Assembly (NCBI RefSeq): GCF_030068445.1 | Contig: NZ_JAQPOK010000014.1 | Span: 1 to 40,688 of the forward strand | Direction of reading: 5' to 3' | DNA from: Roseofilum halophilum BLCC-M91 | Lineage (GTDB): Bacteria; Cyanobacteriota; Cyanobacteriia; Cyanobacteriales; Desertifilaceae | Length of the DNA: 40,688 bases | Shown: positions 120 through 40,511 of the stretch, in pieces | Layout: the number at the start of each line of letters is the position of its first letter | How positions within the stretch are numbered: the stretch's first letter is position 1 | Position numbers and translations under genes: made by a program | The notes under the pieces: model-generated | Database searches by the model: none | Told to the model about the DNA's origin: nothing | Seen by the model: the letters and a program-made list of their open reading frames with translations, nothing else

Positions 120-206
120 GGATGCCGTTCAACACTTCTGGAAAATAACATCAAGCTAATCATTGTGGATACCGACAAAGAGGTTATTACAAAATGGATA
201 AATTAG
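120..206 (+). pseudogene. xisH: Decayed xisH 3' end (remnant)
   Basis: An open stretch ending in TAG at 204-206 translates to a tail (KLIIVDTDKEVITKWIN) that matches the C-terminus of the intact XisH further on (SLLVVDLNQEEIIQWTN). No start and no PD-(D/E)XK core remain upstream, so only about the last 20 to 28 codons survive. As in the intact pair, the end of xisH overlaps the first codons of the following xisI (ATG at 194). This suggests an ancestral xisH-xisI pair that lost the xisH body while xisI stayed intact. The left boundary is approximate. Confidence 0.6.
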
Positions 207-535
207 AACACTATCGTTCATTAGTTCAGTCAATTTTAACTGAATACGATCGCCTTTTTTCCCAAGCTTGCCCTAATGAGGTAGAAATGCTATTAGCATT
301 CGACAAAGATAGAGATCAATATCTGTGGTTTCAAGTGGGTTGGACACCAGAGGAAAGAGTTAAGGGAATTTCCGTTCATATTCAGATTAAAAATGAGAAA
401 ATTTATATTGAAGAAGATTGGACAGAGGAAGGTATTGCGACTGAGCTATTGAGGGAAGGTGTACCGAAAGAAGATATTGTACTGGCGTTCCATGCTCCAG
501 AAACTCGGAAGTTTACGGAGTTCGCGATCGCCTAA
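194..535 (+). CDS. xisI: XisI family protein (copy 1)
   Basis: A 113-residue protein of the XisI family, named after the factor needed with XisH and XisF for excision of the Anabaena fdxN element. Most homologues, probably this one too, are not linked to an excisable element and their biochemical role is unsettled. The length is full for the family. The C-terminal half carries the family hallmark (KIYIEEDWTEEGIATELL, then PKEDIVLAFHAPETRKFTEF). The stop lies in a HIP1 site. The start overlaps the end of a decayed xisH. Over the last 50 residues it is almost identical to copy 2, while the first 63 residues are only roughly 40-45% identical, which hints at gene conversion of the 3' half or very uneven constraint. 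Confidence 0.9.
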   Translation: MDKLEHYRSLVQSILTEYDRLFSQACPNEVEMLLAFDKDRDQYLWFQVGWTPEERVKGISVHIQIKNEKIYIEEDWTEEGIATELLREGVPKEDIVLAFHAPETRKFTEFAIA

Positions 536-539
536 CCCT

Positions 540-590
540 TGACACTCAATGGGATAGGGAGAATGGGGAGAGGGGTGTGGGGGCGATCGC
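540..590. repeat. Post-xisI repeat, copy A
   Basis: The sequence after xisI copy 1 begins with TGACACT and ends in a 30-base G-rich block (561-590) finishing in GCGATCGC. The same 30 bases occur at 1882-1911 after xisI copy 3, also preceded by TGACACT. The two copies differ by an indel of about 9 bases in the middle. The repeat indicates duplication of an xisI-plus-downstream unit. Confidence 0.7.
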
Positions 591-596
591 CTTTGC

Positions 597-602
597 TATA
601 AT
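597..602 (+). promoter_or_regulatory. Putative -10 box for xisH
   Basis: A perfect TATAAT lies 32 bases before the xisH start, followed by a strong AGGAGG ribosome site at 627-632. No convincing -35 box is visible, because the preceding bases are the G-rich repeat. Confidence 0.4.
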
Positions 603-634
603 ACCAGTATCCTCAACTCACATATAGGAGGAAA

Positions 635-1051
635 ATGCCAGCCAAAGACACTTACCATGATGCTGTCAAAAATGCTTTAATCAAGGATGGTTGGACAATC
701 ACTGCCGATCCTTATCCTATTAAATACGAAGAAGTTAAATTAGTTGCCGATCTTGCTAGTGAAAAAACCATTGCTGCCACTAGACAAGAACGCCAAATCG
801 TAATTGAAATCAAAAGTTTTTTCAGTCGTTCTCCGATGCGGGAATTTGAGACAGCATTAGGTCAATACTTGATTTACAAAACTTTCCTTTCCATTAATCA
901 ACCTAACTATCAAATTTACCTAGCTATTGGCAAAGATATTTATCAAAGGTTTTTTGAGCAAGTAGCGATTCAACTCATTCTTCAAACCTATCACATCTCA
1001 TTGTTAGTTGTCGATCTGAATCAAGAGGAAATTATCCAATGGACAAACTAA
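635..1051 (+). CDS. xisH: XisH family protein (PD-(D/E)XK-like)
   Basis: A 138-residue XisH family protein, full length. The fold is a PD-(D/E)XK nuclease-like core: Asp39 in KLVADLAS and Glu58-x-Lys60 in IVIEIKSF fit the catalytic pattern, so nuclease-type activity is possible although the family's enzymatic role is not firmly established. The start ATG follows AGGAGG closely. Its stop overlaps the start of the next xisI by 13 bases, the usual arrangement for this pair, implying translational coupling and a shared complex. It is the only intact xisH among the three xisI genes here. Confidence 0.9.
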   Translation: MPAKDTYHDAVKNALIKDGWTITADPYPIKYEEVKLVADLASEKTIAATRQERQIVIEIKSFFSRSPMREFETALGQYLIYKTFLSINQPNYQIYLAIGKDIYQRFFEQVAIQLILQTYHISLLVVDLNQEEIIQWTN

Positions 1052-3714: not shown

Positions 3715-6700
3715 TTAATCAAACTGTGGAGGTAAATCCGCAGGAGATAAGCCATCGGGTTCTGCGGGTAAGGGTTGCTCCCTTGGAGCAGAGGACGGGG
3801 TTTCAGACGGAGGAGGCAGGACGGTTTCAATCACTAAGGTGCGTTGTAATTTTTGCCCGGTTCCCCCCGTAACGGTTAAGGTCAGGGTTTCTTGTCCCGG
3901 TTGGGGACTAATGGGATAAGCAAGCGTGCCGGTTAAGGGGACTGTGCCCGGTGACGGGAGTAATTCGACACGGGTATCGGGGCCGCCCATGACACTCCAG
4001 GCTAAATTAAGGGGGTTGGGTCTCTCGTCCGGTTGCAGCGTCACCACCACCCGCAGGGGGGCAGATTCTCCATTTACGGTAAAGTTGGTAAGGGCTAGGG
4101 GATAGGTGCGCGGTACAATTTCAATCACTTCTGTTTGTTGGCGATCGTTGACCTCTGAGGGGTTTTGTTGACTGATGGTGCTGACTTCAAAGATGTATTC
4201 TCCCCCTTGACGGGCGGATGTGGGGACATTTTGACAAATCAAACGTCCAGCTAGAATGCAATAGGGTTGTAGGGCATTAGGGATGCCGCTATCAAACCGA
4301 TAACGGCGGGCTGGAACCCTGGCAATTCCACTGGTATCCCGACCGATGATGCGGAGTTCTTGCAGTTGCTGGGCGTTTTCAATTTCCCAAGAGAGTAAAA
4401 TTTCTTCCCCTTGGTCTTCCCTGTAGGTGGGTTGCCCCGATCGCAGTTGCAAGATTTGCGGCGAGGGTGGGGGAGGAGGCGGCAGTAGGGCAATAGTGGC
4501 GGTGGTTTCGGTTTGGGTGATTTCTCCGCTTCCCCCTTTGGGAATGACACCGAGTTCAAATTGATAGTCACCGCTTTGGGAGAGGGGGAGGGTTACATTC
4601 CGACAGCGCAGTTGATTGACTTGCTCGAATATCTCACAAATAGGGTTGAGCGGTTCGGGGATAGCTTGCTCGGAGTCGAAGGGCTTGTCCTGAGCGGAGT
4701 CGAAGGAAAAGCGCATTTCTGGCATGGCAACAAAGCCTTGAGCCGATCGCCCCTTTAAGACGATCTCTTGGATTTGATCGGGATTGGCGATCGCCCAATC
4801 AAGCTGTATTTGTTCTCCTCTGGCGATTTCATAACTCGGCTGGGTAGGCTGAAATTCGATAATTTTGGGCGGTTCTGGCGGTTTAATTTCAATCACATCC
4901 GCAAGGGCAGTTCGGGCTTCTCCTTCAATGCGCGAATCGGGAATAACGGTGAGTTCAAAGATATAACGGCCAAATTCGTCTACGGTTACGGGAACGCCGT
5001 CACAGCTTAAGGTCTGATTGTCAAAACTACAATACTTGCGCCACTCATCGGGGAGTCCAGATTGCAGATCGGTACGCTGTTCCTCACTATTGACGACTCC
5101 ATCCGGGTTACGCCCGATCCAACCCAATTCGGCGATCGCACTGGGATTGCTGATTTTCCAGCTTAATTCAATGGTGTGGGTTGTGTCATTTCCGGTAGAA
5201 TTTCCCGTGGTAGGGGCGGGTTCACCGAGATCTTGGTTAGAAGACGATACGGCTGGTGAACCCGCCCTTACAGAACCTGGTTGTACCGCATCGGGTTGTG
5301 CCAATGTAGCCTTAAATTCGAGGATTTCCGGTAGGGGAATGGGGGCGATCGCGATCGTATTAGTTTTGGCGATAATGGGAGCAACCTGCGATCGCTTGGC
5401 AGTCACCTTTAACTCAAAAATATAATCCCCTGGTTCGCGGGCATCCGTGCGAATATTGCGACAGACTAAAGTCCGCCAAGAGCGCGTACAAAACTCCTGC
5501 AAACTTTCCGGTAATCCTCGGCTCAGATCGTAGGAAACCGGAATACTCGTTACATTACCATTAGGCGATCGCCCCAAAATCTGCAAACTCTGAATTTGCC
5601 GAGCATTGCCAATTTCCCAATTCAGATAAATAAAATCATCATTAGCCGCCGCATAGGACGGAGCAACCGAATTAAAGTCCTCAATTCTAGGCGGTGCAGG
5701 TGGCTTAAAAAACAGCCACCACAAGGCAAAAATCAATAACCCCAACACCCCCAACCCAGCTAAAATCGCTAACAGCAATTGCCACCAAGGCCGAGCTTGC
5801 CACAGAAACGTCCCCTCAATTCGATCCGTCGGTAAGGGAAGTTGATAATCATCCGTCAGTTCCAGATAAAAATTAAGGGTGCGTCCCTCACCCAACAAGG
5901 GTCTGCGCCACCAGGGGCCAGGTTTTGCATCGATATCGACCTGCCATTGCGTCCCCCGATCCAATTTCAGGCGATCGGGATTTAATTCATACACACAAAC
6001 CGGCCGTTCCTGGTCTTCCCGAATCGTAAGGCGCAATTGTCGCAGGGTATTCCCCTCATTATTTAAGCGCAACTGAAATAGGGCCGCCTCCCGACTCACC
6101 TTACCCACCAATGTCCGCAAATCATACCGCAAATCATACCGAGGCAAAACCTCGATATAGACCAGATCCAATAACAGCAAATCCGGGTTATTTTCCCCCA
6201 TTAAGCGCAGAGTCGGTAAATAACGGCCCGCTTTCGTATCCGGGGGAAAGCGAAACTCTAGGGTAACTTCTCCCTTAGCTCCTGGGTTGAGGGCCAAATT
6301 ATCAGGAATAACCACCAAACCCAACTCATTAATCCCTTCTGGATAATGGACTTCCCACCAAGACTCCGGTAAATCGGTACAACTGAGGCGAAAGCGATCG
6401 ACCCGGTTAGAGCGATTATGCACCAAAACCGTCACGATCAGGGATTGTCCCAGTTCTAGAGGGGCTGGTTTTTCGGGGGAGGTAACGGGAGTCAGGGCAA
6501 ATGTGGGGTCATTGGACTGAACCGCTTCTTGAATGGGGGGCAGGACTTGGAGCGTCGCTTGGTGACGGATGGGGGTTTCTTCGGGATAATGCTTGGGTGC
6601 ATCAATCACCAGCAAGTAGGTATACTGACCAGGAATTGCTTCTACGGGAATGGGAAAGGAAAAGACCACCTCGCTGCTGCTTCCCCCACTGAGGGCAAAC

Positions 6701-6924
6701 CGTTCATAGGGGTTGGGACACCAAGTTTTAAGCACTCCTGAAGAATCATCAATAAACAGATCGATAATTGCCCCTTGAAATCCTTGATTACCAATCGTTA
6801 CCCGCAATTCAAAGGTTTCCCCAGCCGAAATGACACTATCTCCTGATGGGTTGGTAATCACGCTCAGGGATTGACTTCCATTAGATCTTTGGTCATTGGT
6901 ACTGGGTAATTGGTAATTAGTCAT
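3715..6924 (-). CDS. Single-pass membrane protein with Cys-pair beta repeats
   Basis: A 1069-residue protein of unrecognised family. Residues about 20-375 are beta-rich and resemble Ig-like/NEW3/CARDB modules (AGETFELRVTIGNQG, LNPGAKGEVTLEF). One membrane helix follows (about 382-406). Then come four repeats of roughly 120-150 residues beginning near 411, 531, 685 and 821, each opening with a P-x-I-x-x-F/L motif and carrying a Cys pair 9-11 residues apart (C479/C488, C632/C641, C763/C774, C889/C897). A last beta domain and a Pro-rich tail end the protein. There is no cleavable signal peptide. Paired Cys suggest that the C-terminal half is in the periplasm. The neighbour upstream has the same N-terminal plan. 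Two dispersed repeats are inserted in frame (at 4671-4706 and 5211-5270). The first dozen residues derive from heptamer repeat DNA, so the true start may lie further in. Confidence 0.8.
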   Translation of the reverse strand: MTNYQLPSTNDQRSNGSQSLSVITNPSGDSVISAGETFELRVTIGNQGFQGAIIDLFIDDSSGVLKTWCPNPYERFALSGGSSSEVVFSFPIPVEAIPGQYTYLLVIDAPKHYPEETPIRHQATLQVLPPIQEAVQSNDPTFALTPVTSPEKPAPLELGQSLIVTVLVHNRSNRVDRFRLSCTDLPESWWEVHYPEGINELGLVVIPDNLALNPGAKGEVTLEFRFPPDTKAGRYLPTLRLMGENNPDLLLLDLVYIEVLPRYDLRYDLRTLVGKVSREAALFQLRLNNEGNTLRQLRLTIREDQERPVCVYELNPDRLKLDRGTQWQVDIDAKPGPWWRRPLLGEGRTLNFYLELTDDYQLPLPTDRIEGTFLWQARPWWQLLLAILAGLGVLGLLIFALWWLFFKPPAPPRIEDFNSVAPSYAAANDDFIYLNWEIGNARQIQSLQILGRSPNGNVTSIPVSYDLSRGLPESLQEFCTRSWRTLVCRNIRTDAREPGDYIFELKVTAKRSQVAPIIAKTNTIAIAPIPLPEILEFKATLAQPDAVQPGSVRAGSPAVSSSNQDLGEPAPTTGNSTGNDTTHTIELSWKISNPSAIAELGWIGRNPDGVVNSEEQRTDLQSGLPDEWRKYCSFDNQTLSCDGVPVTVDEFGRYIFELTVIPDSRIEGEARTALADVIEIKPPEPPKIIEFQPTQPSYEIARGEQIQLDWAIANPDQIQEIVLKGRSAQGFVAMPEMRFSFDSAQDKPFDSEQAIPEPLNPICEIFEQVNQLRCRNVTLPLSQSGDYQFELGVIPKGGSGEITQTETTATIALLPPPPPPSPQILQLRSGQPTYREDQGEEILLSWEIENAQQLQELRIIGRDTSGIARVPARRYRFDSGIPNALQPYCILAGRLICQNVPTSARQGGEYIFEVSTISQQNPSEVNDRQQTEVIEIVPRTYPLALTNFTVNGESAPLRVVVTLQPDERPNPLNLAWSVMGGPDTRVELLPSPGTVPLTGTLAYPISPQPGQETLTLTVTGGTGQKLQRTLVIETVLPPPSETPSSAPREQPLPAEPDGLSPADLPPQFD
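4671..4706. repeat. Dispersed CGGAGTCGAAGG repeat inside a gene
   Basis: The 12-base unit CGGAGTCGAAGG occurs twice (4671-4682 and 4695-4706) around CTTGTCCTGAG. On the coding (minus) strand it reads FDSAQDKPFDSE. The block CCTGAGCGGAGTCGAAGG (4689-4706) is nearly identical to 7043-7060. It lies in the third Cys-pair repeat of the 1069-residue protein, where the sister repeats have no such stretch. Confidence 0.75.
5211..5270. repeat. Dispersed inverted repeat inside a gene
   Basis: Arms TAGGGGCGGGTTCACC (5211-5226) and GGTGAACCCGCCCTTA (5255-5270) pair with one mismatch across a 28-base loop. On the coding strand the element encodes VRAGSPAVSSSNQDLGEPAP, which falls in a linker of the second Cys-pair repeat. 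The arm sequence is related to the palindrome at 8242-8270. Confidence 0.75.
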
Positions 6925-11078: not shown

Positions 11079-14000
11079 ATGAGTAGACCTGAAGGCAACC
11101 TATTACCTATTACCCATGACCTATTACCCATTAACCGTTTAACACAACTGTTCCTCCTGGCCATCTCCATGATGAACTTTAGTGCGATCGGGTTAACCCT
11201 AGGAAGTGCCCTATTTTTGCAACATGCGGGCCCATCCTCTCTGCCCCTTTCCTATATGATCATGGGAGGGGTTTCGATCCCGGTATATCTGGGATTATCG
11301 CAAATCGTCGATCGCACCCATCGCCCCCGACTATTACAATATTTTCTCATCCTTGCCCTCGGATTGGCGATCGCCTTACGTCTAATCGTCCTCTTCGATC
11401 GCCCCTGGGTTTACTTCGTCCTTTACATCAGCTTTTATATCCAATGGACTTTAGTCACCGAAGTCCTCTTTCCCAGCCTAGTCACCGATTACTTCACCAC
11501 CTTAGACTGGAAACGCTATGCACCCTCCCTAAGAATGGCAACCGCATTAGGGGGATTGTTAGGTGGAGGGTTAATCACCATCCTCTCGCCCAAGGTGACA
11601 CCCGAAAATCTGATCTTAACTCTGCCCTTCTTTTATGCGATCGTCTTTATTCAACTGCTCTATCTCGACCATACCCAAAGCCCGATAGAAGCATCATCTT
11701 CCCCCGATTCCGTCAATCCTTCCACGACAAGTTCCCGCTTCGGAACCCTAAAAGACTATCCGATCATTGGCTTCTTAGCCACCAGTACCTTTTTAACCAT
11801 TCTCCTGTATACCATTGGCGAATTTCTCTACTTTAGTATCTATGCCCAAACCTTTCAGGGCGATCGCCAACTGACCCGTTTTTTAGGCATCATGCGAATG
11901 ATCAACAGCATCATTCCCTTTGTAATTCTCTACACCTGTACCCAACCCCTGCTCAATCGGATTGGGGTCATGGGAATGAACTTGGTTTACCCCATAACCA
12001 CCTTTCTCAGCTTTCTCGGATTAGGCACTCAAGGCAACTTAGTCGCTGCCATAATTTGCAATTGTAATACCAATGGCATCGAAGATAGCATTAATCAACC
12101 CATTCAAAGCCTCAACTATAACGCCGTTCCCTATAATTTAGTCGGCCGCATTCGCACCATCAGTAACGGCTTATTCTACTCTCTTGGTCTCGCTACCGCA
12201 GGCCTTCTGCTCTGGGGATTGGATCGATTGAGTCTGTCCCAAATCGCTCAACTGGGTATGGGATTGAGCTTACTCTTCCTGATCGTCCGCTATGGTATGG
12301 GCAAAAGCTATCTACAATCCCTGCTGAGTTTATTGCGATCGGGTTCCACTCACTTTGATGACGTAAGAAGAGGATTAACCCAATTACCCAAACGCTGCGA
12401 AACTGAAGTGATCGAGATGCTCATCAGTGGCGATCTTCAAAACATTATTCTCGCCCTTTCTCTCGCCTCTCGCCTGAAAAAACCGGAACAATTTTTAATC
12501 TACATTCAACCTCTATTCATCAATCCTAACCCAGAGATTAATCGCCATCTGGTTCAATTTTTCCAAAGTTGTCCCAGTCCCCAGATGCTCGATTTTTTAG
12601 ATCCTTTTCTCAAAAGTGAGGATCAAAATCTACGCCTGTTAGCCCTAGAAGCCATAATTGCCAGTAAATACAAACTCAATAATGAACAATTAGAAACCCT
12701 CTGTCAAAACCCCAATCTGCAACAACAAGCCCTTCTGTGTGTCGCTTCTGTTGAAGCCCAAAGTCAACATCCTCAAATTCAGCAGACCTGCCAAATCTTT
12801 TGGAATACCTCCCTCGATGAAACCACCAAACTCACCTTGATTCGAGCCATTCGCAGCACCAAAAATCGCCAATTTATTCCCTATCTACAAATGCTCTTAA
12901 AGGGGGCTTCCCTACAGGTGACTCGTCAAGGATTAGATGTTTTAGCCCTACTAGCTCGCCCTGGAGAAAGGGATCTAGGAGAGTTAGCCGCGACCCAACT
13001 GGCTAATATCGATCCTTTATCTAGGGCAGTAGCGTTTAAGGTCATGGGCGTTGTCCAAAATCCCAATTTACTGCTCGATGTGGCCATGGGACTGCAACAT
13101 TCGAGTTTAGCCGTCCGGTTATGGGCAGCTACAGCCTTAGCCAATTATGGAGAAGCCAGCTTAAAAGTAGCTCGTATCTATCTCTATTCCCCTCGTTATG
13201 AGGTAGTGGAAATGGCGATCGCCACCCTAGCTAAAGTGGGAAGTCGCCGCGCCCTGAATATGCTCTATGACTTCCTCAAACCCGATTATAAAGCAGTTGC
13301 CCAAACCCCCTCCTGGATTCAGAGTATTTCCGCCCATGCACCCTATTCCAGGTTCTTGAACATTATTCTTGATGACTATCAACAACGGGTGCTTCGGCGT
13401 GTCTTTTATGTTTTATCCGTACTTGATGACCAAAAAACGATTCAACAGATTCAACCTTTACTGAGGACGACCGATGCTCGTCTGCGAGCCAATGCCCTAG
13501 AAACCTTGATGTCCCTTAAACATCAACGATTGATCCGTCCCATTCTTCCCCTATTGGACAATTCCCCAGCATCAGTCTCTCATGCTGTTTTATCCGAATC
13601 CGAATTCATCAACCAACTCAGTCAACAGAACGATCGCTGGTTACGCCTCGGTGCATTATTCATCCTCTCACCTACCCCCCATCTCATCCCTCCCCACTTA
13701 GAAGAAGACCCCAATCTCCTCGTTCGCAGAATTGCCCAATCCCTAGCCACCGGTCAACAAGAAGAAATTCCCCAACAAGACTGGTTTTTAAGCCAACTTT
13801 TTTTCCTCAAACAAACTTCCCTCTTGAAAATCCTTTCCCTAGATGAATTAGAAGAACTCAACCGCCTCTTTTATCCAGAAGATGTACCCGCCAACTCCAC
13901 CCTTTACGCCTGCGACCCCCACCAAGCTAAACTCTATCTTATTGCCGATGGTCAAGTCACCTTATATAACCATCCCGACACATTAGAAGCCCAGACCCGA

Positions 14001-14171
14001 ACTCTTAACCCTGGAGAATATTTTGGTGAAATTGCTGCCCTGGAAAACCCTTGGTATAAAGTGATTACTCAAACCGATTGTTCTTTTCTAACCCTATCGA
14101 GTAAACAATTCGATCATCTGATCGATCGCTGTCCTCGCCTTCTCTGGTGTCTGTCCCAACCGCAGAAATAG
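11079..14171 (+). CDS. MFS/NTP-transporter-like protein with HEAT repeats and cNMP-binding domain
   Basis: A 1030-residue three-part protein. Residues about 25-420 are a polytopic domain with about ten or more membrane helices, resembling the MFS or ATP/ADP-translocase (Npt1)-like group. Residues about 430-880 are alpha-helical repeats of HEAT/armadillo type (ARPGERDLGELAATQL, SLAVRLWAATALANYGE). Residues about 920-1030 are a CRP-type cyclic-nucleotide-binding domain ending in NPGEYFGEIAAL. The phosphate-binding cassette lacks the usual Arg (WYKVIT instead of RxA), so nucleotide binding is doubtful. The transported substrate is unknown. The first ~20 residues are encoded by ATTACCC-like heptamer DNA, so the start may be a repeat-driven extension. 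Confidence 0.85.
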   Translation: MSRPEGNLLPITHDLLPINRLTQLFLLAISMMNFSAIGLTLGSALFLQHAGPSSLPLSYMIMGGVSIPVYLGLSQIVDRTHRPRLLQYFLILALGLAIALRLIVLFDRPWVYFVLYISFYIQWTLVTEVLFPSLVTDYFTTLDWKRYAPSLRMATALGGLLGGGLITILSPKVTPENLILTLPFFYAIVFIQLLYLDHTQSPIEASSSPDSVNPSTTSSRFGTLKDYPIIGFLATSTFLTILLYTIGEFLYFSIYAQTFQGDRQLTRFLGIMRMINSIIPFVILYTCTQPLLNRIGVMGMNLVYPITTFLSFLGLGTQGNLVAAIICNCNTNGIEDSINQPIQSLNYNAVPYNLVGRIRTISNGLFYSLGLATAGLLLWGLDRLSLSQIAQLGMGLSLLFLIVRYGMGKSYLQSLLSLLRSGSTHFDDVRRGLTQLPKRCETEVIEMLISGDLQNIILALSLASRLKKPEQFLIYIQPLFINPNPEINRHLVQFFQSCPSPQMLDFLDPFLKSEDQNLRLLALEAIIASKYKLNNEQLETLCQNPNLQQQALLCVASVEAQSQHPQIQQTCQIFWNTSLDETTKLTLIRAIRSTKNRQFIPYLQMLLKGASLQVTRQGLDVLALLARPGERDLGELAATQLANIDPLSRAVAFKVMGVVQNPNLLLDVAMGLQHSSLAVRLWAATALANYGEASLKVARIYLYSPRYEVVEMAIATLAKVGSRRALNMLYDFLKPDYKAVAQTPSWIQSISAHAPYSRFLNIILDDYQQRVLRRVFYVLSVLDDQKTIQQIQPLLRTTDARLRANALETLMSLKHQRLIRPILPLLDNSPASVSHAVLSESEFINQLSQQNDRWLRLGALFILSPTPHLIPPHLEEDPNLLVRRIAQSLATGQQEEIPQQDWFLSQLFFLKQTSLLKILSLDELEELNRLFYPEDVPANSTLYACDPHQAKLYLIADGQVTLYNHPDTLEAQTRTLNPGEYFGEIAALENPWYKVITQTDCSFLTLSSKQFDHLIDRCPRLLWCLSQPQK

Positions 14172-29197: not shown

Positions 29198-32100
29198 TTA
29201 ATCGCACAGAGATACTCTCTCTTGTTGACCCGTGGGATTATTCTGTAAATATCCTTGTAACCATTCACACCCGGTTTCTAACAACTGGTCAAGTTCCAAC
29301 CGATCCAAATGCCATAGGGTAACCCGTCCATCTCCCCCCACAGAAATCAGGGTTTTGCCATCAGAGGTGAAACTGAGTCCATTAATCGAACGGTGGGAAC
29401 TTGCGGTCAGCAGATGCAGTAAGGTTCCATCTTTGCGCCAGAGGCGAATGGTGTTATGGCTGGCGGACGCTAATCGTTCTCCATCTGGGCTAAAAACAAC
29501 ACTGGTAACCGTGTTTCCCTGATGTTCTAGGGGTTCAACCAAGAGTTGCCCTTGGCGGTTCCAGAGTTTGACTCGGCTATCATAACTAGCAGTGGCGATC
29601 GCCTGACCATCAGGAGCAAACGTTACCCCCCAAACTCCCGCTCGATGGCGCAGAGTGCCCACCTGAGTACCATCCGTGCGCCAGAGCTTCACCCGTCCCT
29701 CATCGCTGGCAGCAGCCACGAGCTGACCATCAGGGCTAAAACTCACCCAATTAATGGCAGAACTATCCGTAACCAACGTTTTCAATAATGTGCCATCTCT
29801 GCGCCATAACTTCACCGTATAATCCTTACTCCCAGAAGCAATCGTTTTACCATCAGGACTCACACTCACACTGAGAACCACATCCCGATGACCCTCCAGG
29901 GTTTGCAGCAGCTCCCCTTTCAGGTTCCAAACTTTGACTTGGCGATCGTCCCCTGCGGTCACCAACTGCTGGCTATCTGGGGTAAACGCCACCCCCCAAA
30001 CCTGTCCCTGATGACCCTTCCAGGACTTTCGCACCTTCCCATCCGGCTGCCATACCGTAATCATGCCATTATCACCGATAGTGGAAATGTGCCTCCCATT
30101 CGGACTCACATTCACCCCATTGAGCGGCCCACCCCCGTCCCAGACCTCCATCAGGGCCTTATTCAAGCGCCACACCTTCACCGACTTATCCAAACTGGCC
30201 GAAACAATACGACTCCCATCTGGACTAAATCCCACCTTGGGAACCCAATGGCTATGACCAATCAAAGTTTTTTGCAAACTCCCATCCAACCCACTCCAAA
30301 TCTTAATCGTCTTATCCTTACTAGCCGTCACAAACTGTTGACCATCGGCCCTAAATTGCACATCTAAAACTGTATCCTCATGAGCTTCAATTTCAGTAAT
30401 TAACCCCTCCTCAGTCCAAAAACTCACCATTCCTTTTCTCTGGCCCGTTTGTCCTTCAATTACCTGGCCAGCCACCGCTAAAAGTCCCTCTGACGACCAA
30501 CTCATACTATACACTTCTTGCTCACTCACAAAGGTTTTCACAAGCGTTCCATCCAAGCGCCAAAAGCGAATTTTACGGTCTAAACTCGCCGTTGCTACCA
30601 ACTGACCATCAGGAGAAAAGACCACACTTAAAACTGAAGAATCATGAGGTAGAGTCACCAGCTCGGAGCCATCTTTACGCCAGAGTTTCACCGTTTTATC
30701 CCGACTCGCTGAAGCAATTAACGGATTCTGTGCATCTAGATTTGCTGCTAGGTCAATAATTTGGTCAGTATGGCCCTGTAATTCTATATATTCAATCCGC
30801 TCTAAGTTCGCTACATTGCCTAAATCGGAAAACTTGCCTAAATTCCACAATTTAACGCTACGATCCCAACTGCCAGAGGCTAACCATTTTCCATTCTCCA
30901 GAAATGCCAAACTGGTAATTACATCCTCATGACCGGGAATCGTAAAACAAGGCTTTCCTTCTTCATCCCAAACGCGAATTGTGCTGTCTTCCCCTGCGGT
31001 AGCAATCACTTTTCCATCGGGGCTAAATGTGGCCGCATAAACTCCATCTTTATGACCCTGTAAGCGATTTTCTTCGCTAATTTTATAAACCGCATAGGAT
31101 AAGGTTTTCTCAATGGTCTCGGACACCGATTGAGGTACAAAGGGTGTAATTTTGATTTGTTGTCCCGCTTTCAGTCCCGTGGTTAACCCTTCAATTTCCT
31201 TATTGAGTCCCACTAAGGCCTCGGAAGACGTGCCCAAGGTTCTAATCTGATTAATCACCCCATTCCAAGCAAATCCCGTTAACCCAACAATAAAACAACC
31301 CGCACCGACTAATAGAGAATTCAAAATAAGCTTGCGCTGTTTTTCGCTCTTTTTCTCTTTTTCTCTGGCTTGCTTTAATAATCTCAATAACTTGTTCTCT
31401 TTGCGTAATTTATCGAGGACAAATTGTCCTTCTGAAAGCCGTTGTTTTTCTTGATCTAGGGCTTCAGAGTCAGAAATAGCATGATTTTGAGGATTGGAAA
31501 TATAATCAGCTAAGTCATTTTCTACCAGTTCATAGCGCTCTTGAGCCAATTGAGAAATTTCTGAGTTTTGATGAAGTAACTGGTCGATTTGTTTCTGGTT
31601 TTGGGCATTTTGTTTCTGAAGGTGCGATCGCTCCTGATTAATGGACTGTTTTTTCTGGGTTTGGATAAACTCAACCAGATAATCATGGATTAACTGATAG
31701 CGGGGTTCGGGTTGTTCGGGAATCAGGTAAATTAAGCCCGAACCGCAGAAAATTTCTAAAATTAGCGTCAGGGTTTCTAAAGTGAGATCGGAACCCATTT
31801 CCCCTAAAATTTCTGACCGGGTTTTTAGGGGACGATTGCTGTCTTCATCGATGAAAGTGTAAACGATTTTGCGAGCGTGATACTCATTCTTTTGACCACA
31901 ATCCTTAATTACAGAGTCTAAGAAGTTCTGGACTAATTTGTGTTTGGATTCGACTTGACGATATTGTTCTAATGTGGTAATATTTAGGTCTTGCAGTTGA
32001 GAACCGACAATTTGTAATTCAATCGGTCGGACTTCGTTTGTACCCGCCGATAAATCATTGACTAAGGCTTCAATTAAATCATCATCGAGTTCAAATTGAG

Positions 32101-34327
32101 TGTGACGGGTCAAATTTTTAATCACTTCAAAGGTATGGGCTTTGGAGAAATTGCCCAAGGCATAGCGATTGCTTTTATCGAGTAAATTACAGGCGATCGC
32201 CTCCAGGGAAAGATGGCGTTCAATTTCTAGCAGATGATGTAAGTAATCTTCTCTAATCGAAATAATGATTTTTAGTCCTGATTGATGGAGACACTCTTCT
32301 AAAAAGCCATAAAACTCTTGTCGTTTTTCAGGATCGTTACAAACAAAGAAAAACTCTTCAAATTGGTCAAAGATGAGTACCGTTAACCCATTTTGATCGG
32401 CAATTTGATCGAAGGTTTGCAGATAGAGGTCTGGGGTGTAATCTGAGAGGTGAGTATGGCTAAATTGAAAGTGTTTCAAGGATTCTTTTAAGGCTTTGCC
32501 CAAGTTCACTCCCCAATCTGAATACACCCGCATCACTACCGGAATTGGAATTTGATCGCCGAGGGTTTTTCGATGGAGGGTAGGGACTAATCCGGCGTTC
32601 ACAATGGAACTTTTTCCGACTCCAGAGGGGCCATGAATTACAGTGATTTTATAATCGGAACGGCTAATGCGATACAGCAGGTTTTGGACATCATTTTGAC
32701 GGTTCGAGGTGGAGATAGCTTCGGCGACTCCCCCCACCTGTGTATCGGTTTCTATCGGATTGGCAAGGAGGGGATTTAAGGCTTGTTGAGTGGGTCTTAA
32801 TTGGGCTGCACCGACAAAGGGACGTAATCCATACTGGGATTGGACGGCACGCTGTTCTTGTTTGAGTAAAAAGGCTTCTCGATAACAGTGTTCGTGGAAA
32901 TAGAGCGATCGCACTCCTTCTAATAAGCGTAAATACCGGTGGGGGTCATGGCGAGAATTGCTTTGGGTAATAGCACGTTCTAGCTTCTGCTTTGCTTCAT
33001 TTAATCTCTGATTCGCCTGTTCATACTGGTTCAGATGGCGCAAGCATTGGACGAATTGTAATTGAAATAACTGAGACCAGAGCAGAGGATATAATCCCTG
33101 GGGTAAAGGCTGCAAGCTCTTGTCCACAGTGGGGTCTGCTACAGAGTATAGGATTTCTAAACACTGCTCTAATCGCTCGCGAGCTGTTTCCCATTCTTCC
33201 TGTTCTAAAGCGAATTTTCCTAAAAATCCATAATCAAGGGCTAACTGCACGGGTAAGCCATACTGCTGATGTAAATCGAGGGCGGTTTGGGTAAACTCTA
33301 AAAGGGTTTCCCAGGCTTTTAAATGTTGCAAGACATCACTAACTTGTCCGGTAATTTGTGCCATTAAATCTTGCCGTCCAGCGTCTTGAAAGCACTGTAT
33401 AGCCTGATGGAAATAATACCAAGATTGTTCCCATAAGTGTTTCTGTTCGGGGGTTTCTTGGGCGGGATAGAAGTAACAGAGTCCCAGGTAAAACAGCAGT
33501 AAACCTTGATGCTCTAAATTGGGGCTAGAGGATAAGTGTTGTTCATAATTTAAGGCAGTTTGATAATAGCCGATCGCAGCTTCAATCTGACCTTGCATCA
33601 GTCGGTCATGACCTAACAGAATCGCTACCCTGGCTTCTAAACCTGGATCAAAAACGGCTTCTCGGCGTTCTAGGGTGGAAAGGGCTAATTCTAACTCCTG
33701 GCGATGTTGACCGCATCCTCCCCGTTGGGGAGAAATAAACGACAGGGGAAACCCTAGCAGTTTTTTATGCTCGCGACTTAAGAGATTGTCGAGTAAGGTT
33801 TGTGCTTTCTGGATAATCAGGGTTGAGAGGGCTTGGGTGGTGAGATCGAAGGAGATGGGATTGGCGGCGAAATTGGCAAAATCGGGGGCAAGCTGCAAAA
33901 ATTGATATAAGAGGCGATCGTTAACCCACAAAACTAAGGGACAATTAAGCTGTTTGCGAAATTCATCCCGGATAACGTTGGTGGAGGTTAAGATATCTTC
34001 TAAGTTAATGACGGATTCTAGACCTACAACCAAGAGTGCAGAGGGTTGGGTTTCAGTTAGGGCTAAATCGGCTTTAACGCTGTGATAGAGATGGGTAACA
34101 TGGGGGGATAACTGCAACTGTCGAAAGGCTGGAAAATCGGGCGATCGCTCCTTTAAGACTTCAGATAACCGCTTCAACAGATACTCTCGCAGGTGTCCAT
34201 AGTTACAGCGTACCAAAATTAAGGAAAATTGCCCTTGAGACAGGGTAATGGCTCGCGCCAACTGTTGCAGGGCCGGTTCATTGTCTATGAAGTCGCAATC
34301 TTGCCAGTGTTGTTCTGTGTTAACCAT
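29198..34327 (-). CDS. nSTAND NTPase with TPR-like, transmembrane and 14 WD40 repeats
   Basis: A giant protein of about 1709 residues. Residues about 20-175 look like a degenerate P-loop domain (SLILVRCNYGHLREYLL in place of Walker A, then ALLVVGLESV and PLVLWVNDRLL). TPR-like helices follow (about 230-500). The nSTAND NTPase starts near 560 with the Walker A GPSGVGKSS and has TVLIFDQFEEFFF as Walker B. A coiled coil lies at about 900-990, one membrane helix near 995-1020 with Lys/Arg before it, then about 14 WD40 repeats, enough for two seven-bladed propellers. The ATG at 34327 was chosen, overlapping the preceding ATPase gene by 43 bases; an earlier GTG at 34375 would give a longer overlap. 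It is probably a signalling or defence NTPase, but no effector domain is recognised. Confidence 0.85.
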   Translation of the reverse strand: MVNTEQHWQDCDFIDNEPALQQLARAITLSQGQFSLILVRCNYGHLREYLLKRLSEVLKERSPDFPAFRQLQLSPHVTHLYHSVKADLALTETQPSALLVVGLESVINLEDILTSTNVIRDEFRKQLNCPLVLWVNDRLLYQFLQLAPDFANFAANPISFDLTTQALSTLIIQKAQTLLDNLLSREHKKLLGFPLSFISPQRGGCGQHRQELELALSTLERREAVFDPGLEARVAILLGHDRLMQGQIEAAIGYYQTALNYEQHLSSSPNLEHQGLLLFYLGLCYFYPAQETPEQKHLWEQSWYYFHQAIQCFQDAGRQDLMAQITGQVSDVLQHLKAWETLLEFTQTALDLHQQYGLPVQLALDYGFLGKFALEQEEWETARERLEQCLEILYSVADPTVDKSLQPLPQGLYPLLWSQLFQLQFVQCLRHLNQYEQANQRLNEAKQKLERAITQSNSRHDPHRYLRLLEGVRSLYFHEHCYREAFLLKQEQRAVQSQYGLRPFVGAAQLRPTQQALNPLLANPIETDTQVGGVAEAISTSNRQNDVQNLLYRISRSDYKITVIHGPSGVGKSSIVNAGLVPTLHRKTLGDQIPIPVVMRVYSDWGVNLGKALKESLKHFQFSHTHLSDYTPDLYLQTFDQIADQNGLTVLIFDQFEEFFFVCNDPEKRQEFYGFLEECLHQSGLKIIISIREDYLHHLLEIERHLSLEAIACNLLDKSNRYALGNFSKAHTFEVIKNLTRHTQFELDDDLIEALVNDLSAGTNEVRPIELQIVGSQLQDLNITTLEQYRQVESKHKLVQNFLDSVIKDCGQKNEYHARKIVYTFIDEDSNRPLKTRSEILGEMGSDLTLETLTLILEIFCGSGLIYLIPEQPEPRYQLIHDYLVEFIQTQKKQSINQERSHLQKQNAQNQKQIDQLLHQNSEISQLAQERYELVENDLADYISNPQNHAISDSEALDQEKQRLSEGQFVLDKLRKENKLLRLLKQAREKEKKSEKQRKLILNSLLVGAGCFIVGLTGFAWNGVINQIRTLGTSSEALVGLNKEIEGLTTGLKAGQQIKITPFVPQSVSETIEKTLSYAVYKISEENRLQGHKDGVYAATFSPDGKVIATAGEDSTIRVWDEEGKPCFTIPGHEDVITSLAFLENGKWLASGSWDRSVKLWNLGKFSDLGNVANLERIEYIELQGHTDQIIDLAANLDAQNPLIASASRDKTVKLWRKDGSELVTLPHDSSVLSVVFSPDGQLVATASLDRKIRFWRLDGTLVKTFVSEQEVYSMSWSSEGLLAVAGQVIEGQTGQRKGMVSFWTEEGLITEIEAHEDTVLDVQFRADGQQFVTASKDKTIKIWSGLDGSLQKTLIGHSHWVPKVGFSPDGSRIVSASLDKSVKVWRLNKALMEVWDGGGPLNGVNVSPNGRHISTIGDNGMITVWQPDGKVRKSWKGHQGQVWGVAFTPDSQQLVTAGDDRQVKVWNLKGELLQTLEGHRDVVLSVSVSPDGKTIASGSKDYTVKLWRRDGTLLKTLVTDSSAINWVSFSPDGQLVAAASDEGRVKLWRTDGTQVGTLRHRAGVWGVTFAPDGQAIATASYDSRVKLWNRQGQLLVEPLEHQGNTVTSVVFSPDGERLASASHNTIRLWRKDGTLLHLLTASSHRSINGLSFTSDGKTLISVGGDGRVTLWHLDRLELDQLLETGCEWLQGYLQNNPTGQQERVSLCD

Positions 34328-35688
34328 TGCTTGAACTTTTGATGCTCGCATAGGGCGGGATTGAGCGCAAACCAAGAGCCATCTGCATCTCGATATTCAA
34401 AGACAAACATACTGCGTAACAGGGTCAAGTATTCTAGGTCTCCCTGTACGCTTTGGTTATTGACCACGCGATACAAGAGTTCCCATTCTTCATCTTTAAT
34501 GGAGGTGGTTAAATAATCTCGACGGTCTCGAATCACTGCCTCTAGTATATCGCGGGAAAAGGGTGGGTCTTCTTGTTGCAAACAACTAAAGAGCATTCCG
34601 AGTAGGTTTCGCATGTGACCCCCACTGACTTCACAGAGGCGGTCTAAGGTATGGGGGTGGTCAAAGAGGTCTAAAATGTGGGATTTTTGCTCTTCTAAGG
34701 TTTGCTCTGGAAAGGCACGGGTTAAGACCATATGGTGCAGGAGTTCCATTCCCTGGGGAAAGGGTTGGCTGCTGCGGGTTTTTACTGGAACCATGGGTAA
34801 GACTTTGGGGGTAATGCCTCCTCCAAGTCTATTTTTGAGGGTTTCGCATTCACTGGAAAAAATCAGGGAGAGGGGAATGGTATAGACGAGATGGCAGTTG
34901 AGTTGACGCAGTTGCGCTCCCCGGTCAATAAAGAGGTATTCGGGTAAGAGTCGTCCGGTGGGCCCGGCTTGATTGTGTACTCGGTCGAGGTTATCGATAA
35001 TGACGACTAATCCTTTTTTCCCTTGCTGCTTGAGTTGTTCAGTGGCTACTTGCAGGAGTTCTCGGTTAATGGCTTCTAAAATACTGGCGGTGCGGGGTTC
35101 GAGATAGTTGCGAAGACGATGGCGCAGTTTTTGGCTTTCTTTGGTTTTGGCGGTAATTTTGGCGATACCGAGGGGAAGGGAGAATTCCATTTCGCCGCTA
35201 CTGTTGGCGCTGAGGTCTCCGACTCCGGGAATGGAGGCTTCGGCATTAAAATCGATGGGGGTTTGTAGAAAGTCTACGGCATCTTTGAGTAGGGTTTTGA
35301 AGGTGCGCGGTTGCAGTTGGATGGAGTGCTGCTGTAACTGTTCGCTGACTTGACGGGCGATCGCCAATAAAATATCGGTAATGTCAATATCGCCCATATC
35401 TAGGTCTTCTGAGGACTCAAAGTAGACGACCTCAAAGTTTTCTTGCTCTAGCAAGGCTTTTAAGCGCAAGAGTTCGGTGGATTTTCCGCAGCCAATATGG
35501 CCGGTGAACAGTTGGCAGGTGGGGCGATCGGGGGATAGGGTGATGATGGTACGACCCAAGGCTTTGACGATTTTGCCCCCCCGCACAGAAGAAAAATCAA
35601 TATAATAACGACGATTGTCAGGATCGCCTAGGTCTAAGGGTGTGGATGGATTACAGGCTTGGTAAAATTGCCCTAAATCTATGGTCAT
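34285..35688 (-). CDS. AAA/STAND-like P-loop ATPase
   Basis: A 467-residue ATPase. Walker A GHIGCGKST is at 63-71 and Walker B in LVVIIDNLDRVH near 230; a SGGHMRNLLGML stretch resembles the later sensor region. A C-terminal part (about 380-460) looks like a winged-helix or similar regulatory domain. No effector or DNA-binding domain is recognised and no membrane helix is seen. Its last 43 bases overlap the start of the giant nSTAND-WD40 gene, so the two are probably translationally coupled and act together. A heptamer repeat tract lies just upstream. Confidence 0.8.
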   Translation of the reverse strand: MTIDLGQFYQACNPSTPLDLGDPDNRRYYIDFSSVRGGKIVKALGRTIITLSPDRPTCQLFTGHIGCGKSTELLRLKALLEQENFEVVYFESSEDLDMGDIDITDILLAIARQVSEQLQQHSIQLQPRTFKTLLKDAVDFLQTPIDFNAEASIPGVGDLSANSSGEMEFSLPLGIAKITAKTKESQKLRHRLRNYLEPRTASILEAINRELLQVATEQLKQQGKKGLVVIIDNLDRVHNQAGPTGRLLPEYLFIDRGAQLRQLNCHLVYTIPLSLIFSSECETLKNRLGGGITPKVLPMVPVKTRSSQPFPQGMELLHHMVLTRAFPEQTLEEQKSHILDLFDHPHTLDRLCEVSGGHMRNLLGMLFSCLQQEDPPFSRDILEAVIRDRRDYLTTSIKDEEWELLYRVVNNQSVQGDLEYLTLLRSMFVFEYRDADGSWFALNPALCEHQKFKQWLTQNNTGKIATS

Positions 35689-38981: not shown

Positions 38982-40442
38982 TTAGAATAAACTTAGTTGC
39001 TCTCCTTCTGTTCCTTTAGATTTACGAGTACGTTTGATTTTAGTTTTGATTGTTTGAGTGGAAAACTCAGTAGTATTAAAGAGGTTAAGTTGAGTTGGAG
39101 TTATTGGTTTATTAATTGTGGGTTTAACAACCTTGACTTTTTGCTTAACCCATTCTCCAAATCCATAATTAAAACCATCAGATTTATGAGTATGTTCGCA
39201 ATATTTATGACTAATACCCTGGACAAGTTCAGTTTTAGTTTTGATATTAAAACTGCCAGTTTTTCTAACAGCAACTCGACCGAGATAAGTGCCGATTTTC
39301 TTTCCTTTAGTTACAACAGCTTTAACCATGTCTCCAGTCTGAAAACCAAAGAAGGATTTCTGTCTTAATTTAGGTGCGCATCCAGGAAAACCGTACTTAT
39401 CAGAATTAACCATCTGACGAGTACCTCTACCCATAGCTTTGATTAGCAAGGGTTGATAACCTTTAACATTTAAGCTGTTAGGAGTTGACAGGCCCACGCA
39501 GGCTGCATCAGTCCAATGAGATTTGCTGATTCCCAAACGCTTGCGATTAAATTTAGTTAATCCTCCAGAACCAATCTCAACTGGTAGTCCGGTAGCTTCG
39601 AGAATTTCCTTGAGTTTCCAACGAGTCGCATTAACAGCGGCAGCGTCAGCCAAAGGTTGTTTTCGTTGTTTCTCAATTATTGCTAATAAATTAGGTCTAT
39701 CTGATAGAAAATCAGCAGGTAATTGATTGTCTTTTTTCTGATTACACTTTACACAACTTAAGACTAAATTGGAAACTCTATCGCTCCCCCCTTTCGATTT
39801 TGGATGAAAGTGGTCGAGATTAAAATGCCCTTCTTTAGTATGGCAATAAACGCAAGTTCTGTTAAATTTCTCAAGCAAATATTCCCTGACCTCGTAGCCA
39901 AATAGTTCACCTTTCTGGTATTCAGTTCCATTAATTTCTGGGTTGACCATTTTCTGACTATCAAACCTAACTAATTCCATACTGATAGCAGAAATTGGAG
40001 CTAATCGACATAGCTTTTTAACCCAAGATTCGATGTTATAAACTCTGGACATTAACGATGGAGGCAACCATCCTTTGGAGCGGCGGCGATTGAGGAAGCG
40101 TGGCTTACGGTAACGGGTCTTGCGGTTACGTCTTGACCTTCTTAACGTCCGACGGTCATTTAATTTCTCCCGAATCTGAAGCCCGCGATGCTCTAACTCA
40201 GCGCACCAAACGATATTAGTTTCAGAAACTATTGCTAAACCAGTAGTCTTAGCACCAGGGTCAATCTTTATTTTTAATTCCTTGGGTTCCGAAGTTAATT
40301 CCTCCTTCAAAATAATCGTAAACGGATACCTGCGAAATACTGCTGCTTTCCCTTGCTTTAATACCTTTCTAGCAACAGCCGGATGCACTGAATTGCAGGG
40401 TTTTCTATTAGTATCCAGTACAAAGACTGAATTGTTATTCAT
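38982..40442 (-). CDS. iscB: IscB RNA-guided nuclease (RuvC-HNH)
   Basis: A 486-residue IscB, the IS200/IS605-linked ancestor of Cas9 that uses an omega RNA to cut DNA. In order: PLMP-like N-terminus (VHPAVARKVLKQGKAAVFRR), RuvC-I with Asp61 in KIDPGAKTTGLAIV, an Arg-rich bridge helix (97-121), RuvC-II with Glu156 in SMELVRFD, the HNH with CVYC (197/200), NLDHFHPKSKGG (His211) and CVKC (230/233), and RuvC-III with Asp312 in KSHWTDAACVG. All key residues are present, so it may be active. The ATG at 40442 follows AGGAG by 7 bases; an upstream in-frame start at 40511 would enter the RNA. A structured RNA precedes it. No tnpA is in the window. Confidence 0.95.
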   Translation of the reverse strand: MNNNSVFVLDTNRKPCNSVHPAVARKVLKQGKAAVFRRYPFTIILKEELTSEPKELKIKIDPGAKTTGLAIVSETNIVWCAELEHRGLQIREKLNDRRTLRRSRRNRKTRYRKPRFLNRRRSKGWLPPSLMSRVYNIESWVKKLCRLAPISAISMELVRFDSQKMVNPEINGTEYQKGELFGYEVREYLLEKFNRTCVYCHTKEGHFNLDHFHPKSKGGSDRVSNLVLSCVKCNQKKDNQLPADFLSDRPNLLAIIEKQRKQPLADAAAVNATRWKLKEILEATGLPVEIGSGGLTKFNRKRLGISKSHWTDAACVGLSTPNSLNVKGYQPLLIKAMGRGTRQMVNSDKYGFPGCAPKLRQKSFFGFQTGDMVKAVVTKGKKIGTYLGRVAVRKTGSFNIKTKTELVQGISHKYCEHTHKSDGFNYGFGEWVKQKVKVVKPTINKPITPTQLNLFNTTEFSTQTIKTKIKRTRKSKGTEGEQLSLF

Positions 40443-40511
40443 TGAAAAACTCCTATTTCTAGGGTAATGTTCGCCTTGCCAATGTTGCATCTCGGCACTT
40501 CCAAATAGCAC

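Follow-up and report, generated by a model that had tools for sequence, protein, structure and literature searches.

Multicellular cyanobacteria encode many STAND proteins that have no assigned function, and one such case raises the question addressed here. Within a 40,688-nucleotide stretch of DNA (termed here the window), which forms contig 14 of a 4.85-Mb genome, a gene for an ATPase (gene A) runs into a gene for a giant, receptor-like protein (gene B). Do the two proteins act together and, if so, in response to what? A first-pass annotation of the same sequence had suggested an undescribed signalling or defence module. Because homologous pairs turn up repeatedly among cyanobacteria, and frequently next to cell-division genes instead of known antiviral ones, the pair looks like a conserved signalling module. 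What marks the A family is a fixed partner, a shared domain (termed here N) and a repeated position at ftsQ-ftsZ, which in place of a vague label of possible defence raise testable questions concerning A-N binding, the orientation of the WD40 region and septation.

Domain architecture of the two proteins

The two genes and their parts, in window coordinates, are as follows.

34285..35688, minus strand: gene A, a 467-residue STAND/ORC-like AAA+ ATPase with a C-terminal winged-helix-like end (HH-beta-beta), by Pfam, AF2 and Foldseek
35479..35502, minus strand: Walker A motif of A, GHIGCGKS
34981..35010, minus strand: Walker B motif of A, LVVIIDNLDR
34285..34327, minus strand: 43 bases shared by the 3' end of A and the 5' end of B, given B's ATG start
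29198..34327, minus strand: gene B, a 1709-residue N-TPR-nSTAND1-TM-WD40 protein, ATG start at 34327
33758..34294, minus strand: N domain of B, approximately residues 12-190, alpha/beta, lacking a P-loop (model and alignment)
32813..33712, minus strand: TPR-like helical solenoid of B, approximately residues 206-505 (predicted model, weak TPR matches)
31667..32701, minus strand: nSTAND1 ATPase domain of B, residues 543-887, Walker motifs intact (Pfam PF20703)
31265..31330, minus strand: predicted membrane helix of B, residues 1000-1021, N-terminal side positive
29303..31063, minus strand: 14 WD40 units of B, residues 1089-1675, W-ending and about 41 residues apart (Pfam E 3.8e-119)

Its motifs and its predicted fold mark A as a complete STAND-type AAA+ ATPase. 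It matches the Pfam families AAA_22 (E 1.6e-7) and KAP_NTPase, and an intact Walker A motif together with a STAND-type Walker B motif (D[NG]LD[RK]) places it among the STAND proteins; these motifs are kept in 133 and 128, respectively, of 134 A homologues. The STAND classification itself reportedly goes back to Leipe in 2004. The AF2 model of A (pLDDT 81.7, pTM 0.84) ends in helices followed by a two-strand wing, and a Foldseek search with this model ranks ORC/Cdc6 proteins first, with CED-4 also present. A would thus have a STAND/ORC-like AAA+ fold with a C-terminal winged helix, its likeness to these ATPases being remote (TM-scores of 0.31-0.42 and 10-15% identity for ORC/Cdc6 among the matches listed).

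The 43-base overlap between the 467-residue ATPase and the giant protein, as first annotated, is upheld with B's ATG start; an alternative open TTG start at 34375 would lengthen it to 91 bases, and in two loci of the same genus (L031 and L035) the longest B frame begins at the 43-base position. The TPR-like helices, the membrane helix and the 14 WD40 repeats ascribed to B are likewise found, by Pfam, by the predicted model and as a hydrophobic helix. B belongs to the nSTAND1 family by a wide score (PF20703, E 2.1e-31, 110.3 bits versus a cut-off of 27.1), and its nSTAND1 Walker A motif is kept in 95 of 96 B homologues. The TPR matches fall below the Pfam cut-offs, and the TPR-like solenoid is confident in the predicted model. 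The 14 WD40 units are enough for two seven-bladed propellers. Counted only in the region beyond nSTAND1 (some loci have a hydrophobic segment within nSTAND1), a hydrophobic helix is present at KD>=1.6 in 84 of the 96 homologues, and its N-terminal side is the more positive one in 68 of those 84. According to the positive-inside rule, the more positive flank of a membrane helix marks the cytosolic side; the WD40 part would therefore lie outside the cytosol. Pfam and PADLOC searches found no effector domain in either A or B.

The N-terminal region of B is an undescribed domain of about 180 residues. It is modelled confidently as a five-strand alpha/beta fold and carries the conserved motifs RCNY, G(L)ES, N..RDEFR and LAPDF..WA; a Pfam search with it returned no convincing family match. 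B had been annotated as having two P-loop-like domains, one of them degenerate. This description is borne out in part: nSTAND1 is intact, the order of strands and helices in N resembles that of A (both as predicted models), and a P-loop (G4GK[ST]) occurs in 0 of 120 N domains; profile-profile comparison of N with A, on the other hand, finds no homology (probabilities of 0.5% and 0.1%). N is consequently not claimed here to be a degenerate copy of A's ATPase. N also occurs by itself, in short stand-alone proteins of about 150-195 residues (L224-L235), usually one per genome and mostly far from any A.

Recurrence of the pair and its nearest published counterparts

Homologues of A were examined at 141 loci, that is, 60 picked for variety, the best 80 of 542 relatives from a homologue scan of contigs, and the window itself; 134 of these loci are unique. 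At 120 of the 134 an N-domain gene lies downstream of A, on the same strand and within 2.5 kb; at 96 of these 120 N, nSTAND1 and WD40 are all present, and at 57 the N-domain gene overlaps A (taking longest-frame starts). A second set, of 59 genomes, was less selected; in it N occurs at most 4 kb downstream of 70 of the 84 strong A matches. The expectation that the two genes would co-occur is thus borne out, and the contrary possibility, that they are seldom adjacent, is refuted. Viewed from N in the same 59 genomes, A lies upstream of 70 of the 98 strong N matches listed, i.e., of 69 of 84 long frames and of 1 of 14 short frames, the other 13 short frames being far from any A. Of these genomes, 41 have A and 37 have N, and 7 of the 12 genomes having an unpaired A retain an unpaired large B elsewhere. 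Within the window's own clade, 36 of the loci listed have a partner, and in 34 of them the offset between A and B is negative (that is, the genes overlap).

The partner varies in what follows its N domain. In a distant sister clade of A (26-36% identity) the next gene encodes an N-TPR protein in 12 of the 12 loci taken, joined to A in 6 of the 12 by a 4-base ATGA overlap; these N-TPR proteins score weaker for N, and two such genomes have no genome-wide N match at all. At five other loci (L244, L245, L246, L247 and L037) A is followed by N alone, the minimal form. Because N-TPR follows the distant-clade A and N alone follows some A genes, the best-supported statement, as far as sequence can tell, is that A and N are the constant core and that B is one carrier of N, of the receptor type. 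Distances among A proteins correlate with those among their partners (Mantel rho of 0.71 for N, 0.69 for nSTAND1 and 0.73 for WD40, with 0 of 200 permutations as high); such correlations say that the pair has been inherited together and do not single out N, A-WD40 being as strong as A-N. No third gene recurs between A and B. At two loci (L069:4165-4587 and L070:1640-2062) a 140-residue toxin-like frame and a 72-residue antitoxin-like frame, so labelled by eye, are inserted between the two.

Might this be an ordinary operon, in which two unrelated proteins are held together by vertical descent and share no function? Linked genes can be passed on together even when no function joins them, and related genomes are not independent; the linkage seen here is indeed partly inherited among related genomes, and at 14 of the 134 A loci no partner lies nearby. 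Such an operon is nevertheless very unlikely, given that each of two deep A clades has its own N partners, which differ in architecture, that roaming copies retain the pair while their neighbours change, and that one genome (G077; contig 20, 3370-8096) has two tandem A matches and, after them, a single long frame containing two N domains, so that A and N are equal in number. What recurs is a conserved two-gene STAND unit that is seemingly undescribed as such in the searchable literature, as had been suggested for a signalling module.

Among published systems the nearest idea is that of Kaur et al. 2021 (PMC8195603), who describe a pair of STAND genes, one active and one inactive. Their nSTAND2 system consists of adjacent genes for an intact STAND ATPase and for a partner that has lost its NTP-binding motifs; A and B likewise are adjacent and combine one intact STAND ATPase with an N partner that lacks a P-loop and is fused to variable modules. 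The modules differ, however, being mostly GT4 or HEPN in the nSTAND2 system and TPR or TPR-nSTAND1-TM-WD40 here; Pfam and PADLOC searches found no GT4 or HEPN effector fused to A or B. Seen in this light, N could be an inactive STAND domain: the missing P-loop and a strand order similar to that of A's predicted model are consistent with this, and the absence of profile homology to A lends it no support. The Pfam nSTAND2 family itself (PF20702) does not appear among the matches of A at E<=0.05, nor among those of the N or TPR regions of B; it is absent for full-length B among the 25 of 66 family matches listed, has 0 matches in genome G000, and matches elsewhere in 2 of 19 relatives.

The iSTAND ternary systems (Kaur et al. 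2020, PMC7159879) resemble the A-B pair in having an inactive ATPase-like component, a cyanobacterial concentration and, in some, membrane segments; they require a MoxR-vWA couple, which the A and B proteins lack, and MoxR or vWA genes are absent from the window; nor are they among the 25 Pfam families that occur most often in 150 neighbours. Like the WD40-bearing NLR/STAND receptors (nSTAND1 or NACHT with WD40), B combines nSTAND1 with WD40 propellers; unlike them, it has no recognised N-terminal effector or EAD, has instead an N domain and a partner ATPase, and has a likely membrane helix between switch and sensor.

Association with ftsQ-ftsZ

Among 150 neighbouring genes at 50 loci, the FtsQ POTRA domain (27) and FtsZ (13) are the commonest Pfam families by far, and at 39 of the 134 loci ftsQ and/or ftsZ lies upstream of A on the opposite strand. 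In an even sample of 146 genomes from the phylum, A is present in 34, all of one class, and ftsQ was found in 33 of these; in 16 of the 33, A is divergent from ftsQ within 2 kb. All 16 near cases have A upstream of ftsQ in divergent orientation, with 325-1704 bases between them, as against about 0.1 genomes expected under uniform placement, a figure that ignores kinship between genomes. The set of relatives, which shares genomes with this sample, shows the linkage in 13 of 41 (scored by eye). In six genomes a further A, of the distant clade, is found 8-14 kb away on the other side of ftsQ; in one such genome (G158), ftsQ-ftsZ is flanked by an A-B pair and, at the opposite side, by an A-(N-TPR) pair. 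In a tree of A proteins, ftsQ-linked rows are scattered across the main clade. The same tree puts N-alone partners at three places inside WD40 clades, and an arrangement of A and N beside ftsQ was accordingly set aside as the ancestral state. N is also fused to a division protein: in one genome (G031), which has no A match, the only SepF is a 357-residue frame (L236:3654-4727) that begins with N and has SepF at residues 282-352 (E 1.5e-20). This fusion is from a single genome and lies on a 5.7-kb contig.

These observations are tentatively brought together, with a probability of roughly 40%, by regarding A and B as two halves of one cyanobacterial signalling module, in which the membrane receptor B is coupled through N to the ATPase A, possibly reporting the state of the envelope or of division. 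B would be a single-pass receptor with cytosolic TPR and nSTAND1 regions; its WD40 double propeller, probably across the membrane from these, would act as sensor; nSTAND1 would switch and oligomerise, as in STAND proteins; and N, a putative docking piece for A, would relay the state of B. The ORC-like ATPase of A, with its winged-helix-like end, would be the likely output arm, binding either DNA or a complex. Because a large part of the family is tied to ftsQ-ftsZ and because N is fused to SepF, the state of the envelope or of cell division would be the likeliest signal, a step that we infer from linkage and one fusion. Were A to bind N, the WD40 region to face outwards and the ftsQ-linked pair to affect septation, this would link an NLR-like receptor directly to bacterial cell division.

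The same orientation toward ftsQ allows another arrangement, in which A, as an AAA+ regulator resembling ORC/Cdc6 or MalT, binds DNA and controls divergent genes, acting upon ftsQ-ftsZ from the shared intergenic region, and B is a membrane-bound anti-regulator. The divergent placement in all 16 near cases, the ORC/Cdc6 proteins heading the Foldseek list and the wing that ends the model of A are as this would have it; winged helices are, on the other hand, common as pure protein parts of STAND proteins, and the window's copy has no conserved gene divergent from it. We consider such a regulator quite unlikely.

Defence, mobility and the neighbourhood of the pair

The window's own copy stands apart from the ftsQ linkage: its A clade (28 rows, support 99) has no ftsQ-linked member, ftsQ is on a different contig of its genome, and no neighbour is common to more than 11 of the 35 loci of the clade. 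Without a fixed neighbourhood, this clade does not present the pair only with housekeeping genes. Under the two-halves reading, the ftsQ-linked system would have in the window's copy a roaming paralogue of the receptor type. The window's genome has one copy of A, and the five other genomes of the genus have from 2 to 8; among the best 80 of 542 relatives, the closest named one, as judged by A, is from Roseofilum acuticapitatum (L091; 93% identity). The flanks of the pair are not conserved between the window and five loci of the same genus (L031-L035): znuB, which lies beyond B in the window, is in none of these within the flanks retrieved, and the HerA neighbour is common, within the genus, only to L031.

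The main rival to envelope or division signalling is an immune role, that is, an abortive-infection STAND module in which B senses a phage product through its TPR or WD40 repeats and oligomerises by its nSTAND1 domain, the effector being either A or a protein encoded elsewhere. nSTAND1 and WD40/TPR repeats are among the predicted components of conflict systems (PMC8195603, PMC10907252), and iSTAND systems are reported to be concentrated in cyanobacteria and associated with multicellularity (PMC7159879). The varying copy number and the loss of neighbours within the genus fit a mobile lifestyle, homologues occur on 8 plasmid records, all cyanobacterial, and A weakly matches the PADLOC model PDC-S20 (E 7.4e-8).

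The neighbourhood speaks differently. The first-pass annotation had placed the pair in an accessory region; its HerA, Uma2 and RRXRR-HNH (IscB-like) neighbours are present in the window, and neither the accessory region nor the defence context is supported. PADLOC tallies (E<=1e-10; counting models, not proteins) came to 43 in 150 neighbours of 50 pair loci, taken from 67 qualifying loci (93 full loci) with genes longer than 800 residues left out, versus 155 in 141 control genes from 20 regions (18 random and 2 shifted off pair loci), a control inflated by CRISPR-Cas loci. Because this first set is rich in ftsQ-linked loci, the test was repeated on the window's clade, giving 53 models in 140 of 174 listed neighbours (genes shorter than 800 residues, 35 loci); the Uma2-type model PDC-S03 was commonest, at 7 of 140 versus 3 of 141 in the control among the matches listed. 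Neither neighbour set is enriched over the control. Nor did A or B make up any PADLOC system with its required partners, their matches being weak or repeat-driven; no homologue was found in 50,697 phage records, and none was recovered from viral contigs. Together with the lack of a recognised effector domain and the many loci fixed beside ftsQ-ftsZ, this makes an immune module, on balance, somewhat unlikely.

The divisome is a known phage target, and ftsQ-linked copies could guard it, in which case division signalling and an immune role could both hold. A further, rather unlikely version would be a STAND system coupled to the divisome, with N as a new adaptor linking A to division proteins and with outward-facing WD40 receptors of the B type feeding in signals from the envelope or from intruders; filamentous cyanobacteria could by this means stop or redirect septation, perhaps as a cell-sacrificing immunity.

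Several other genes of the window may be recorded. Homologues of XisI and XisH adjoin each other at 194-1051 (plus strand); a 1069-residue frame at 3715-6924 (minus strand) has no Pfam match at E<=0.001; the RRXRR-HNH (IscB-like) protein is encoded at 38982-40511 (minus strand); and a 1030-residue protein encoded at 11079-14171 (plus strand) combines MFS, HEAT repeats and a cyclic-nucleotide-binding domain.
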